From a virus: a DNA stretch of 64,000 nt. Of the stretch, positions 49,190 through 62,046 are shown one piece after another; positions within the stretch are counted from its first letter, which is position 1; the number at the start of each line of letters is the position of its first letter. The stretch lies in IMG/VR virus record IMGVR_UViG_3300037486_000321, positions 1-64,000 of that record; one strand, 5' to 3'. The position numbers and the translations under genes were made by a program. Below the pieces are notes generated by a model. That model saw only the letters and a program-made list of their open reading frames with translations, had not been told where the DNA came from and searched no databases.

Positions 49190-49520
49190 CTGGGTCTTCG
49201 TAGATATTGCCAATAATTAAAAGATTTTTACAATCAAATAAATACCCACATCCTGTAACTTGCTTTGATGGATCTTCGAGGCTTTTTGCATACCAGCCAG
49301 TATCTTGCCATATGATTATACTTCTTGTTTTTTCATCTCCCAGATAATCATGTAGAACTATATCCCCCTCGTAAATCTCTTTGCCGTTCTTATCTTTGAG
49401 TCCAGTGAATTGCATAATCACTATATCATCTCTGGATAAGTCTGTTATTTTCCAATATGGAGGGACTTCTGACATTAATTTATCATTTGGGAACCATGCT
49501 CTAAATTTTAATGTTTTCAT
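49161..49520 (-). CDS. YopX-family phage protein
   Basis: The 119-residue protein has the YopX hallmark: KFRAWFPNDKLM at the start, IVIMQFTGLKDKNGKEIYEG and DIVLHDYLG, then TGCGYLFDCKNLLIIGNIYE. The family is widespread in phages, and its function is unknown to me. The last residues come from the 48-base repeat. The start overlaps the upstream HNH gene. Confidence 0.8.
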   Translation of the reverse strand: MKTLKFRAWFPNDKLMSEVPPYWKITDLSRDDIVIMQFTGLKDKNGKEIYEGDIVLHDYLGDEKTRSIIIWQDTGWYAKSLEDPSKQVTGCGYLFDCKNLLIIGNIYEDPETAKTRNKT

Positions 49521-50055
49521 AGTTTAGGCTTTTTGGCGGTTTGAGTTTAATTATTCTATAAACTGATGAGTAACTCATATTATATTTAGTTTTTAATAAA
49601 GACATTACGACTCCATTATTATAATCACTTATAATACTATCTCGTATTTCTTTATTAAATTTTGTATTACCTAATCCTATTTTCATCTTCCTTTCTTCTG
49701 AGCAATGCCCTCTTTTTTGAGCAATTTTTAAGATACGGTGGGCGTGAAGTGTATTCTCATGATATGTAACCCATTCTAAGTTGTTTGCATTATTATTTTG
49801 CTTATTACCATCTTTATGATTTACACAAGGTTTATTATCAGGATTTGGAATAAAATGAATTGCTACAAGTCTACTAATAAGCATTGGTGTTCTTTTTTCA
49901 TTAACACGCCATAAATTAGCAATCATATATCCTGTTTTATTAGTAAATGGATGTAAAAATTCACCCTTTTGACTTATTTTACTTTTAATAATTCCATTAT
50001 TATTAATTTGATAACTATCCTCAAACCCCTTAATATCTTTCCAGATTTCTTCCAT
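49501..50055 (-). CDS. HNH homing endonuclease (NUMOD4)
   Basis: The 184-residue protein has a NUMOD4 DNA-binding part (IWKDIKGFEDSYQINNNGII), an HNH nuclease core (CVNHKDGNKQNNNANNLEWV, then YHENTLHAHR, about residues 76-105) and a C-terminal helix-turn-helix (ISDYNNGVVMSLLKTKYNMS). It is a free-standing selfish gene. The end (LKPPKSLNYENIKI) runs into a fragment of the repeat leader and into the YopX gene start, as if inserted there. Confidence 0.85.
   Translation of the reverse strand: MEEIWKDIKGFEDSYQINNNGIIKSKISQKGEFLHPFTNKTGYMIANLWRVNEKRTPMLISRLVAIHFIPNPDNKPCVNHKDGNKQNNNANNLEWVTYHENTLHAHRILKIAQKRGHCSEERKMKIGLGNTKFNKEIRDSIISDYNNGVVMSLLKTKYNMSYSSVYRIIKLKPPKSLNYENIKI
49518..49542 (-). repeat. 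shortened leader-repeat relic, copy 3
   Basis: TCATAGTT and TTTTGGCGGTTT, the two ends of the 48-base repeat on the plus strand, occur here with the middle missing. They overlap the end of the HNH gene and the YopX start codon. Confidence 0.5.
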
Positions 50056-56696: not shown

Positions 56697-57182
56697 TTAT
56701 TTAGTTTTACGTGTCATTGATCCTACTACAGAATTTGCTTTTTTCTGGTTATGTTTTTGTTGTGCTTCAAAGGATAAATCCCTTGGCATCTTTGGACCAG
56801 CAAAGTATTGCTGTCCATGTAGGCGTACCAGGTTTTCCAGAGCATCCTTTCGAGCATCCACTGCTTTTACTGCACCATATGCTATGTCATTTTCATATTT
56901 GGCTTCTATAAGAGTATTACTTGCCTTCTGATAATCTTTATGACTAATAATGACAGCGGTAACTACGGCTTCTGTAATCTTATCAATACTATATCTGTCA
57001 GGATTACTTCTAACCGCCTTATCCAGTTCAGCTCTGACAAGTTCCAATTTTTCTTTAGCCTTGTCCAGTTCCATACGAGTGCTTGCAGAAATCTGAGCAT
57101 ACTTCATCATTAGGGAAGGTTGATCCAACCACTCTACATCAAGAGCAGTTTCATCAATTCTCATGTCTTGTTCGTAGTTCAT
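56697..57182 (-). CDS. possible UvsY-like recombination mediator
   Basis: The 161-residue helical protein opens MNYEQDMRIDETALDVEWLD and has LDKAKEKLELVRAELDKAVR, LIEAKYENDIAYGAVKAVDA and LENLVRLHGQQYFAGPKMPR. This is a well-conserved phage family usually found next to SSB. Helix length and location suggest the UvsY role of loading RecA on SSB-coated DNA, but I base this on recollection and context only. Confidence 0.6.
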   Translation of the reverse strand: MNYEQDMRIDETALDVEWLDQPSLMMKYAQISASTRMELDKAKEKLELVRAELDKAVRSNPDRYSIDKITEAVVTAVIISHKDYQKASNTLIEAKYENDIAYGAVKAVDARKDALENLVRLHGQQYFAGPKMPRDLSFEAQQKHNQKKANSVVGSMTRKTK

Positions 57183-57439: not shown

Positions 57440-57457
57440 AGTTTTTATGTTTTAAAA

Positions 57458-57790
57458 GAAATAGTGTCGGGGGTGTGGTCAGTCGGGCTTATAGTAATCT
57501 GAAATCGGAAGTCAACACAATCGTCAATTCGGTCATTCGGTATTAATGGTTATCACAGTCGGAGTTCCTTCCCAATTATTTAATGACTACATGGGCAGTC
57601 TGCTTTTTCTAAGTCTATTGCTCTACCAGTTGAGCTACCAGTAGGTTGTACTGGATGGGACTCGAACCCATTACCCATAGATCCATTTAGCATAGGTTTG
57701 GCTGATAGCCAAGTATAATTGCAACGATCAACCGGTTTGATCTACCGTTTAAGGCACGGTGCCAACCTTCACCCCCACGCCCACTATTTC
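57458..57790 (-). ncRNA. structured RNA with permuted tRNA-like domain (Y RNA / YrlA-like candidate)
   Basis: No protein is encoded in this gap. In the leftward RNA the ends pair: GAAATAGTG (57790-57782) with CACTATTTC (57466-57458) and GGGGGTG (57776-57770) with CACCCCC (57475-57469). Inside are local hairpins (GATCAA/TTGATC; TTGGCT/AGCCAA), then helix CTAAATGG/CCATGTAG (one mismatch), then a tRNA-like domain. The long terminal stem carrying a closed tRNA mimic is the plan I know for YrlA-type Y RNAs that bind Ro60/Rsr. GTGAAGGT in the terminal stem faintly recalls the Ro60 site of animal Y RNAs. At 333 bases it is longer than usual Y RNAs. Alternatives are a permuted tRNA gene or a split self-splicing RNA. 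Confidence 0.7.
57614..57681 (-). other. circularly permuted tRNA-like cloverleaf
   Basis: In transcript order: anticodon-stem 3' strand TCTAT, variable loop GGGTA, T-arm ATGGG-TTCGAGT-CCCAT, acceptor CCAGTA, loop CAACC, acceptor TACTGG, TA (positions 8-9), D-arm GCTC-AACTGGTA-GAGC, A26, and anticodon-stem 5' strand ATAGA. TCTAT and ATAGA pair fully, as do both acceptor strands (six pairs) and the T and D stems. Thus all four helices of a tRNA exist, but the 3' half comes first and the acceptor end is closed. No normal anticodon loop is formed. Confidence 0.85.
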
Positions 57791-57808
57791 AAAGAACTTA
57801 ATTATTCC

Positions 57809-58154: not shown

Positions 58155-58463
58155 CTATTCCTTTACAGGTTCCACATAATCCTTCATAACATCATTCCCT
58201 ACCTCAATTTCAGTAGTCCAGTTTGCCTGTTGAATGGCAGCATCAACCAAACGCAGTTGTTTGGCATACCAATCAAACCCCGCTGCTACCTGTGCAAGGG
58301 TAATCTTTGGGACTTTCACCACCACATCATCCACATTCTCGGTGACATTCCGGCGAGTGGCCTTGACTTCAAAAAGCCCCTCAACATTGATTTTCTTGAG
58401 CTGATCTACTTTTTCATTCAGCTCTTTCCTTCTGAGTAAAGCCTCCGCTAATTTGATCTTCAT
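58155..58463 (-). CDS. DUF6847-like helical phage protein
   Basis: The 102-residue protein starts MKIKLAEALLRRKELNEKVD and ends YAKQLRLVDAAIQQANWTTE, the typical outer helices of a small family common in phages and bacteria. The central segment (DDVVVKVPKITLAQVAAGFD) links two helices. No biochemical role is known to me. It lies after the clamp-loader gene. Confidence 0.65.
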   Translation of the reverse strand: MKIKLAEALLRRKELNEKVDQLKKINVEGLFEVKATRRNVTENVDDVVVKVPKITLAQVAAGFDWYAKQLRLVDAAIQQANWTTEIEVGNDVMKDYVEPVKE

Positions 58464-59783: not shown

Positions 59784-61169
59784 TTAAATTTTTTTCTTAT
59801 CCACCCAACTTCCATCTACAGGACACACCTCTATATCCACATCTAATGGCACTATGATCCATTTCCAAGCTTCAGGTAATTTCTGACAAGTAATTCTTTT
59901 TATCAATGATATTGTAGTGTTTAATTCTGATGGTTCCACATCCAATAACATTGAGTCATGAATTTGCCCAATTAATCTGGTGTCCATATGTAAAGCTTGA
60001 AGATGTTTATTAACTTCAATAAAACTCCATAGTAAACAATGAAATGCCGCACCTTGAATTGGGTAATTACACACCTGTTTACTATCCATCACCCCTCCAC
60101 ACCTGAATCCAGTAAGTAAATCTATATATCCATATTTTTTATAAATAGAATACCAACGGTCTTTCCAATCTGAGTAATCTGAAAATCTTTTTTTCCAGAA
60201 ATCTCTTTCTATTTTCTCAATATGTTTTTCAAAAGCAGTTAATGACTTAATTCCTTTGCTGATAAGATGATCAGAAAGAGTTCCTTCAGGCATTGGTATT
60301 CCTTCTCCTTCCTTCCACCTATTTATAGATAATTTTCCCCACAGACATGCCATACTATAAGCACAGTTTTTATAGTAATCCCCATAGAATTCTGGGAATA
60401 CAAATCCATTCTTAGCTGCTTGCCGTAAAGTGGTATGTGATGGCTCTCCTTTGTCATATGTATCAAGCATAAATATTTGCTTTGCCATATCTCTGTGCAT
60501 ATCAGAAGTGGGATCATTAATATACTTTAGCATAGTTGGATCTTTGTGATAACATGCCCCTATACGTACTTCTAATCCACTATAATCAACTTCCAAAAGT
60601 TGATGTCCAGGACGGGGGTATAATGCTCTGCGTACAATTTTCATTGCTTCTTCATCCCTCTTAGGAATATTCTGGAAATTAGGGTGGTCAGAACTGGAGC
60701 GAAAGGTTTGCACAAGATGAAGATTAAAAAAAGGATGAATGTACCCATTGACTTGTTCCCTAATGAATGCTTCAAGGTAGGTATCTCTTATTTTCTTTAA
60801 TTTACGGATTTCCAGCAAGGTATGTAACTCTGGAATGTCTATTCTTTTTAAAGTTTCATCATCAGTAGCTCCCTGTCCTGAGGCAGTTTCTTTTTCAATT
60901 TTTATTTTCTTTATCTTATATAGAAATATGGATAACTGAGTATTGGAATTGATATTGACAGATTTTCCCATAGCATATTCCCAATGTTTAAAGAACTTGG
61001 TTTGTTTAAATTGTTTTTCCAAGGAATCTATTCTATGGGTAAGTTGAAATTTTTTATTATTTACATAATCCGTATCTATCCGCATCCCTGCTTGTTCAGC
61101 ATGAGATAGGGCTAAAATCCCATTATGTAGTAATTGGTAAGCCTCATATGTTTTAGCTTTCACAATCAT
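59784..61169 (-). CDS. family A DNA polymerase, polymerase domain only
   Basis: The 461-residue protein holds thumb, palm and fingers of a PolA enzyme: SSDHPNFQNIPKR (159-171), motif A EVDYSGLEVRIG (193-204), motif B RQAAKNGFVFPEFYG (249-263) and motif C GQIHDSMLLDV (401-411). The last has HDS where cellular PolA has HDE. There is no exonuclease domain; this part is encoded 2.1 kb upstream as a separate gene. The starts of this and the glycosyltransferase gene overlap. It should copy the phage genome together with the exonuclease protein. Confidence 0.87.
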   Translation of the reverse strand: MIVKAKTYEAYQLLHNGILALSHAEQAGMRIDTDYVNNKKFQLTHRIDSLEKQFKQTKFFKHWEYAMGKSVNINSNTQLSIFLYKIKKIKIEKETASGQGATDDETLKRIDIPELHTLLEIRKLKKIRDTYLEAFIREQVNGYIHPFFNLHLVQTFRSSSDHPNFQNIPKRDEEAMKIVRRALYPRPGHQLLEVDYSGLEVRIGACYHKDPTMLKYINDPTSDMHRDMAKQIFMLDTYDKGEPSHTTLRQAAKNGFVFPEFYGDYYKNCAYSMACLWGKLSINRWKEGEGIPMPEGTLSDHLISKGIKSLTAFEKHIEKIERDFWKKRFSDYSDWKDRWYSIYKKYGYIDLLTGFRCGGVMDSKQVCNYPIQGAAFHCLLWSFIEVNKHLQALHMDTRLIGQIHDSMLLDVEPSELNTTISLIKRITCQKLPEAWKWIIVPLDVDIEVCPVDGSWVDKKKI

Positions 61170-62046
61170 TTTGTATATCTTTTAAATCTTTCAATATCAT
61201 TCCGTAATTATTTACTCCTTTGTGGATAACTACACCTGATTTCCTTATCAATTTATTGTGTTTAAAAGGTCTGTAATCTACTTGATGTTGCCAACGTCCC
61301 CACTTCCATGTTATATCTGTCAGCTTAGGATGACGTTCTTTCAGAGTTTGTGCCATTTTCAATCTCCCATTCTCTATCAGATACAATTCTTCAGTATTCC
61401 CTCCCTTTACTGTCATAGTAGTGCTTTTCTCCTGTAGAAAAGCATAAAATAATATAGTACACCATCTATCTTTTAAAACTCTTATACTGAGGTCTGTGTC
61501 TTCATTGTACCGTCCTCTCCAATGATAAGGTATTTTGTTCAGTATTAGTATACAGGAATAAATGCGGGTATTCAGTACAAATGCTGGGTAATACTGCCTT
61601 CTCAGAGCAAAAAAATCATATTGAAATCCAGCTAATGCTACATTTTCATACCGATCCACAAAGTCTTCCGCAGCTCTAAATATATTTCCTGATGTTACAT
61701 GGGAATGTAGGTTATTATTTAACCTCAGAAATCCAGATATATTATCATCTAATACCCAATGCCGTTTTGATCCTAAAGTCATAGAATGATCCCAACAGAA
61801 ATTTCTTGCGGGACCTGAACCTTTGCTTTTACTATTTCCAAGATTATCACATACATCATACTCATCCTGATACTTTTTAGGTAAAACTAATATCTTGTTA
61901 GGGGGTATTACTGCGGCATATTTTTTGTATTCCTGCTCCTCTACCACTATGTGATAAGGTACTTTCATGCTTTCAAAACATTTACTTGTCAACCGTGATT
62001 CCCAACGTCCCTTGGATACTACGTATACTGGGTATTTTGGATTCAT
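61153..62046 (-). CDS. TET-associated-type glycosyltransferase (TAGT/GREB1-like)
   Basis: The 297-residue protein has YPVYVVSKGRWESRLTSKC (5-23), YHIVVEEQEYKKYA, GSGPARNFCWDHSM and RHWVLDDNISGFLRLN (95-110). This series is that of the glycosyltransferases named for their link with TET/JBP in phages, which are thought to decorate oxidised bases in DNA. The DD of VLDDN would bind metal and nucleotide sugar. The first 65 bases overlap the radical SAM gene and cannot be trimmed without losing the SKGR motif. It lies between the polymerase halves. Confidence 0.75.
   Translation of the reverse strand: MNPKYPVYVVSKGRWESRLTSKCFESMKVPYHIVVEEQEYKKYAAVIPPNKILVLPKKYQDEYDVCDNLGNSKSKGSGPARNFCWDHSMTLGSKRHWVLDDNISGFLRLNNNLHSHVTSGNIFRAAEDFVDRYENVALAGFQYDFFALRRQYYPAFVLNTRIYSCILILNKIPYHWRGRYNEDTDLSIRVLKDRWCTILFYAFLQEKSTTMTVKGGNTEELYLIENGRLKMAQTLKERHPKLTDITWKWGRWQHQVDYRPFKHNKLIRKSGVVIHKGVNNYGMILKDLKDIQNDCES

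Follow-up and report, generated by a model that had tools for sequence, protein, structure and literature searches.

We found that a tRNA-like module with swapped halves in the genome of a tailed phage lies inside a larger structured RNA, whose anatomy and assignment to a family are, on comparison of related sequences, very probably real, and in which one internal slot holds a permuted tRNA body, a linear tRNA or no whole tRNA depending on the member. The window (i.e., the whole stretch of DNA analysed here, 64,000 nucleotides) belongs to a virus record of 70,138 bases, and its phage encodes portal, tape-measure, RecA-, PolA- and RuvC-like genes. The RNA is sited within the replication module, in the intergenic stretch 57440-57808 (minus strand), between a DIP1984/DUF6847 gene upstream and a UvsY-like gene downstream (see Table 1). 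An earlier note on this DNA had read the module as a permuted tRNA gene or a split self-splicing RNA; it is partly supported by our results, and it missed the larger conserved RNA around the module.

Elsewhere in the window, a TET-associated glycosyltransferase (TAGT, E 2.7e-44) at 61153-62046 (minus strand) suggests modified DNA bases, and a NUMOD4-HNH homing-type endonuclease at 49501-50055 (minus strand) adjoins a YopX-like gene.

Table 1 Features of the RNA, its tRNA-like module and neighbouring genes (positions are those of the window unless a contig is named)
Feature	Position	Strand	Remarks
Whole structured RNA	57459..57789	-	about 331 nt; bracketed by the outer helix; 12 distinct syntenic elements in the window clade
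Leader AAGTTCTTTGAAATAGTGGG	57780..57799	-	invariant: identical in 12/12 clade members
Outer helix, 5' strand	57770..57789	-	GGGGGTG/CACCCCC (window) vs GGGTGC/GCACCC (L005): change on both sides at two positions
Outer helix, 3' strand	57459..57477	-	pairs with 57770..57789
5' H-type pseudoknot	57744..57769	-	AAGG/CCTT interleaved with ACCGT/ACGGT; covarying
Hairpin GATCAA-ACCGG-TTGATC	57726..57742	-	change on both sides at 5/6 positions in the window clade; also helix 3 in the 39-sequence count
Anticodon-arm-like hairpin TTGG-CTATCAG-CCAA	57698..57712	-	start of the tRNA slot; stem cells paired 48/48 in the clade
Permuted tRNA-like module	57614..57681	-	T-arm, acceptor, linker, acceptor, D-arm; closed by an anticodon-stem-like helix
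Anticodon stem, 3' strand TCTAT	57677-57681	-	followed by GGGTA
T-arm ATGGG-TTCGAGT-CCCAT	57655-57671	-	read from sequence
Acceptor, 3' strand CCAGTA	57649-57654	-	read from sequence
Linker CAACC	57644-57648	-	read from sequence
Acceptor, 5' strand TACTGG	57638-57643	-	followed by TA
D-arm GCTC-AACTGGTA-GAGC	57620-57635	-	followed by A
Anticodon stem, 5' strand ATAGA	57614-57618	-	followed by CTTAG
Second pseudoknot	57571..57600	-	GACT/AGTC with CCCA/TGGG; found in 7/12 clade members, a count that leaves out L005, L006, L010, L176 and L192, where the pairing was not made out
Unstructured 3' tail	57477..57568	-	CCGA motifs at multiples of ~7.6 nt
UvsY-like gene	56697..57182	-	phrog_231, E 3.9e-5; downstream neighbour, near the element in most clade members; context only
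DUF6847/DIP1984-family gene	58155..58463	-	linked partner, just upstream of the RNA in most elements
RNA-bearing gaps in cultured Vibrio phages	L256:1780-2120; L255:1780-2200		unannotated, after DUF6847

The permuted tRNA-like module

The swapped tRNA halves claimed earlier are real: the interval proposed for them, 57614-57681, coincides exactly with the module on the minus strand, and the order of 3' half, linker of about five bases and 5' half can be read directly from the sequence, as can the C-C mismatch at 1-72. The best Rfam match was YrlA, full length over 57603-57693 (43.6 bits, E 1.5e-8; gathering score 69), and the acceptor, T and D stems are paired in the YrlA-like module. Across 10 modules of type 2 (defined below), the acceptor strands, which were chosen by hand, pair in 58 of 60 cells with changes on both sides at all 6 positions, and none of 2000 strand shuffles matched this pairing. 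Folding energy alone is unremarkable, being ordinary for the module (z about -0.7) and z -2.3 for the whole intergenic stretch.

Permuted modules fall into two types. The window's module is of type 2, in which the anticodon stem is where the chain comes in and goes out; type 1 modules are broken in the variable loop and have a complete anticodon hairpin with the loop ATGTTAA. Acceptor ends lack CCA and are joined by linkers of 3 to 16 nt, some of which are UUCG- or GAAA-closed hairpins. Taken alone, the module thus described appears to be a variant of the YrlA-type tRNA mimic, and a mimic, which had been the fallback of the earlier note, is the best fit.

Anatomy of the whole RNA

We assessed the 5' domain by drawing its structure on 39 sequences. 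The proportion of paired cells was 74.8%, compared with 59.9% for shuffled and at most 49.8% for slid sequences, and the covariation score was 0.452 (0.200 shuffled, at most 0.183 slid; 0/500 shuffles as high), in a count that includes six window-clade rows misaligned in helix 1. Changes on both sides were seen in all five pairs of pseudoknot helix 2. This 39-sequence count is a stronger test than the 12-member pairing test in the window clade, the helices of which were chosen by hand and in which the 5' pseudoknot stems, AS2 and TST1 comprise few distinct strands and did not beat shuffling.

An unanchored scan for the inner pseudoknot was uninformative (45 of 46 members vs 33.1 expected), and the scan was therefore anchored. 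With anchoring, the stem paired with its own partner in 31 of 32 members, compared with 32% for swapped partners (0/2000 permutations), a count in which 8 of the 46 members were not anchored and which is weakened because misplaced anchors (L175, L231 and L255) stayed in. In the held-out set, own partners paired in 18 of 19 cases vs 38% when swapped (0/2000 permutations).

The second pseudoknot occurs in the variants CCCA/TGGG, CTAC/GTAG, CCGA/TCGG and CCGT/ACGG. Its place in the family bears on the pairing of the module's flanks, CTAAATGG and CCATGTAG, that had been noted previously: 7 of 8 pairs do form in the window, but the pairing is not conserved, as L001 keeps CCATGTAG without CTAAATGG, and family-wide it is CCCA (57592-57595) that pairs with TGGG (57571-57574) within the second pseudoknot, in place of the flank pairing.

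At the 5' end stands the leader, which we take to be boxA-like. Stretches of GYTCTTTGA, likewise boxA-like, precede the distant members L251, L235, L318 and L320 (by eye) and are perhaps an antitermination signal. No folding signal is seen in the 3' tail (mean MFE z 0.07 over 46 tails), which carries 4.26 CCGA motifs per tail vs 0.37 expected, at spacings of 7-9, 14-16, 22-24, 30-31 and 38; these counts are not independent because the tails are homologous, such that one inherited ancient array is seen repeatedly. The tail looks suited to an oligomeric protein. Within the window-clade elements, no ORF of 60 aa was found save a spurious one in L006.

Distribution and linkage to DUF6847

A protein search with the clamp loader returned 54 viral relatives, several of which carry the element between the same genes. 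Related elements begin with AAGTTCTTTGAAATAGTGGGCGTGGG and end with CCCGACACTATTT, and two pattern scans yielded 12 distinct elements in the window clade, the window included. Reading these sequences, we found one permuted body in the window, L010, L180, L182 and L187, two in L003, L005, L176, L192 and L193, and one of another type in L006. The closest relative by clamp loader (L001; 78% identity) has the scaffold and no tRNA body. In L187, the clamp-loader ORF (614 aa) starts 17 nt past the element and departs after GESGCVDCDTEFLSETGW in what looks, by eye, like an intein in the ATP-binding loop.

Searching with the DUF6847 protein, we obtained 53 loci, and a profile of the 3' part of the RNA (i.e., the tail), rebuilt once, matched directly downstream of DUF6847 in 49 of these 53 viral loci (the misses being L246, L252, L253 and L254). 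With a larger query the tail profile matched 77 of 80 DUF6847 loci, including 30 of 33 previously unseen contigs. Two cultured Vibrio phages (Zobellviridae) hold the RNA downstream of DUF6847, in a gap of 300-370 nt that bears no annotation, so that the RNA adjoins DUF6847 in nearly all viral loci found, cultured phages included. For the 46-member counts, L245 (a copy of L244), L242 (on the contig of L193) and L250 (weak) were dropped beforehand; the held-out set comprises 26 of 30 members, the near copies L289, L301, L307 and L326 having been dropped.

The partner gene product matches Pfam DUF6847 (PF20935; E 1.6e-7, 31.8 against a cut-off of 27) and, below the cut-off of 70, NCBIfam DIP1984 (NF038048; 36.5 bits, E 4.9e-9), and its predicted structure is poor (pLDDT 59.8). 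By guilt by association, DIP1984 is most likely the protein that binds the tail. The corresponding context was found in 0 of 4 bacterial genomes with DIP1984; a search of bacterial DIP1984 gave weak coiled-coil-like matches only (6/143, none above the cut-off), and plasmids yielded no DUF6847.

Blastn of the element against phage records gave only cross-matches, in 13 records, to ordinary tRNAs or to tRNA-like stretches lacking annotation, and blastn of one distant member against phage records gave no match; a pattern scan of genome contigs gave four matches (L198-L201) to the short leader only, and a tail pattern scan one contig, a known one. The scaffold is matched by no Rfam 15 family, and no description of this RNA was found in the open-licence PMC literature; its novelty is judged against these two sources.

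Among known RNA classes, tmRNA was rejected (ARAGORN reported none in the window or in 12 elements, and tmRNA_permuted scored only 12.3 bits, on L005), as was a plain tRNA, for which ARAGORN found none in the window and at a loosened threshold gave a spurious tRNA-Asp. No Rfam model of GOLLD or ROOL matched.

The tRNA slot in different members

The slot sits between the 5' domain and the 3' domain of the RNA. Of 46 members, 16 have a permuted tRNA body in it and 16 a linear tRNA, while the slot of the other 14 contains no whole tRNA; states were assigned by script except for L180 and L249, which were assigned by eye. The five clade members with two modules (L003, L005, L176, L192 and L193) also have these in a linear-like arrangement. 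Some linear members, such as L220, have a 7-bp acceptor followed by ACCA and could be true tRNA genes. ARAGORN joins halves of two different modules into a tRNA-Asn in L192, L193, L215 and L242, and such annotations in phages may be false.

Anticodon-arm-like hairpins (i.e., a stem of at least 4 bp closing a 7-nt loop NUNNNRR; a few matches are other hairpins by eye) were present in 33 of 46 members, where dinucleotide shuffles predict 6.2; the held-out set gave 18 of 26 vs 3.3 expected. The anticodons vary, GUU being the commonest and GCU, GAU, UUU, CUU, UGU, UAA and UUG occurring too. In the window, the hairpin loop CTATCAG makes a poor anticodon loop, and the strict rule finds no hairpin in L001 and 12 others of the 46.

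Mapped onto a DUF6847 tree with 39 rows, the three slot states call for 12 changes, and the permuted state for 6, with strongly supported branches (5 of 35 are starred) alone forcing only 2. Because the tree needs 12 state changes, the slot topology has probably flipped more than once at one place.

YrlA-like modules in other phages

A pattern scan of viral contigs gave at least 121 matches; those listed divide into 50 tandem tRNA genes and 71 matches of other kinds. The acceptor pairs at 6 or 7 of its 7 positions in 51 of the 71 non-tandem matches listed. Among the same listed matches, Ro60/TROVE was found in 21 of 37 tested non-tandem records, compared with 4 of 50 tandem-tRNA records (Fisher p 7.6e-7). 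Phages commonly carry permuted tRNA modules of the YrlA-like kind (L055-L174, among the matches listed), and the TROVE-linked modules of other phages are phage Y RNAs or close kin.

Some of these modules have features of their own. In 19 of the 51 well-paired modules, among the matches listed, the broken anticodon stem is completed by a hairpin that has U33 and whose loop looks like that of a real anticodon. One 308 kb phage record, in which TROVE is present, has three YrlA-like modules within ~600 bases (L073:309-916). A tetraloop seals the acceptor end of the permuted modules in L060, L069 and L087 (UUCG, GAAA and UACG, respectively), and in L069 a Lys (UUU) anticodon arm is otherwise complete.

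In the RNA family of the window, the module seems to resemble the YrlA tRNA-mimic domain, and its identity as a Y RNA is unproven because the window clade and the tested DUF6847 phages are without TROVE: the gene was found neither in the window's own record nor in any of 12 window-clade records or 10 DUF6847 records (two counted twice; the records may be fragments). This weighs on the reading of the RNA as a regulator of the Y-RNA type, in which the module would play the part of the YrlA tRNA-like domain (nuclease tethering or gating), with DIP1984 or a host Ro60 replacing the phage Ro60. The shared topology, the Rfam score and the company that such modules keep with TROVE in other phages speak for it, but the lower Ro-binding helix is absent from the alignment, and linear and tRNA-less members are unlike Y RNAs; we consider it rather unlikely.

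Proposed function and alternative explanations

We propose that the RNA may form a phage RNP, probably with DIP1984, that shows a tRNA body or an anticodon arm as a decoy for tRNA-attacking host enzymes. As an account built from sequence, this is plausible, short of probable, and the decoy function by itself we put forward somewhat more tentatively. Specifically, the RNA would be transcribed and stable; an oligomeric protein, most likely the product of the adjoining DIP1984/DUF6847 gene, would coat the tail; and the RNP would present the tRNA elbow or anticodon arm as decoy or bait for tRNA-recognising host enzymes, the targets most likely being anticodon nucleases of phage defence.

For a tRNA to work, its ends must be free and chargeable and its anticodon loop intact. 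In a decoy, the displayed surface alone would matter, not chargeable ends, leaving the slot free to alternate among a linear tRNA, a permuted one and an anticodon arm on its own. We favour a displayed tRNA mimic because the linkers join the acceptor ends, the outer ends form no conserved loop, and a tRNA-shaped surface or anticodon arm persists. The presence of linear and permuted tRNAs in one slot is a natural experiment, and it suggests selection on the tRNA surface, not on the ends.

There is some precedent. According to PMC11555353, phage tRNAs defeat anticodon-targeting defences, and PMC7790460 proposes competitive inhibition of an anticodon nuclease by the YrlA tRNA-like domain; YrlA is not cut by the nuclease studied there, where decoy action is unproven too. 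RNA-repair genes would hint at tRNA damage; a Pfam scan covering 30 of the window's proteins found none, which counts against a decoy.

More broadly, we may be dealing with a new class of phage RNP, a proposal we regard as tenable and still tentative: a DIP1984-type coat on a single-stranded tail with a repeat of ~7.6 nt, bearing an exchangeable tRNA surface whose anticodon would drift in an arms race with tRNA-targeting immunity. Should the decoy reading be correct, the phage would be countering anticodon nucleases by means of an RNA, and a role would be suggested for the uncharacterised DIP1984 family.

The tRNA-shaped surface of most members would also suit an RNA that acts on translation, its anticodon arm or tRNA body docking in the ribosome to inhibit or redirect host translation, and PMC12286853 states that ribosomes are bound in pull-downs by GOLLD, likewise a large phage RNA. 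In the permuted members, however, the scaffold is attached through the anticodon end and would impede entry into the decoding site, and the anticodons vary with no obvious codon logic, making this explanation unlikely in our view.

An improbable explanation is that a real tRNA gene is nested in a carrier RNA, from which the tRNA would be excised; maturation of the permuted form would require a cut in the linker and ligation of the outer ends. Linear tRNAs in 16 of 46 members, some with 7-bp acceptors and ACCA, fit such a gene, and permuted tRNA genes do exist elsewhere (PMC10085705). The permuted topology claimed earlier is indeed real and is kept in relatives. A rejoined tRNA is nevertheless disfavoured: in the tRNA loop that the joined outer ends were suggested to form, U33 would survive in no more than two of the 10 type-2 modules (judged from their sequences), and the C-C mismatch at 1-72, the absence of CCA, the varying linkers (closed tetraloops included), the swaps in the slot and the 14 of 46 members without a whole tRNA all point the same way.

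We also doubt that the slot is a neutral landing site, i.e., a tolerant insertion point at which tRNA fragments come and go and the scaffold alone works. Frequent changes of slot state and the lack of a tRNA body in L001, near the window, would agree with this, but the modules covary under selection and the anticodon-arm hairpin is far above chance even without a tRNA body.

Finally, a permuted group I intron-exon unit splicing a tRNA circle, suggested by the order of the halves and the structured outer flanks, has a negligible chance of being correct, given that Rfam group I and II models, Intron_gpI included, gave no match even at E<=10 (which agrees with the earlier failure to see a convincing group I core and leaves a split self-splicing RNA without support), that what the flanks form, pseudoknots plus a tail, does not resemble a group I core, and that the junctions are not conserved.

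Comparison with known systems

Like the permuted tRNA genes of algae and archaea, the phage module has its 3' half before its 5' half, a short linker and a pairing acceptor; unlike them, it has no conserved anticodon loop on joining, no CCA, and scaffold on both sides. GOLLD and ROOL are also large pseudoknotted phage RNAs linked with tRNAs, and the linkers of GOLLD sometimes hold tRNAs, as described in PMC12286853, whereas the RNA family of the window measures about 330-400 nt and is distinguished by an unstructured CCGA tail, the link to DUF6847 and permuted modules.

A further likeness is to YrlA (Rfam RF02553), a permuted tRNA mimic in which T-arm, acceptor, linker, acceptor and D-arm are closed by a helix. 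The phage RNA differs in having no counterpart of the lower Ro-binding helix (positions about 12-19 and 91-104), in placing the module in a larger scaffold with a periodic tail, and in that the same slot takes linear tRNAs in relatives. With the defence-evading phage tRNAs covered in PMC11555353 the RNA possibly has its role in common; those are ordinary functional tRNAs, whereas here the tRNA would be a sealed or embedded mimic.
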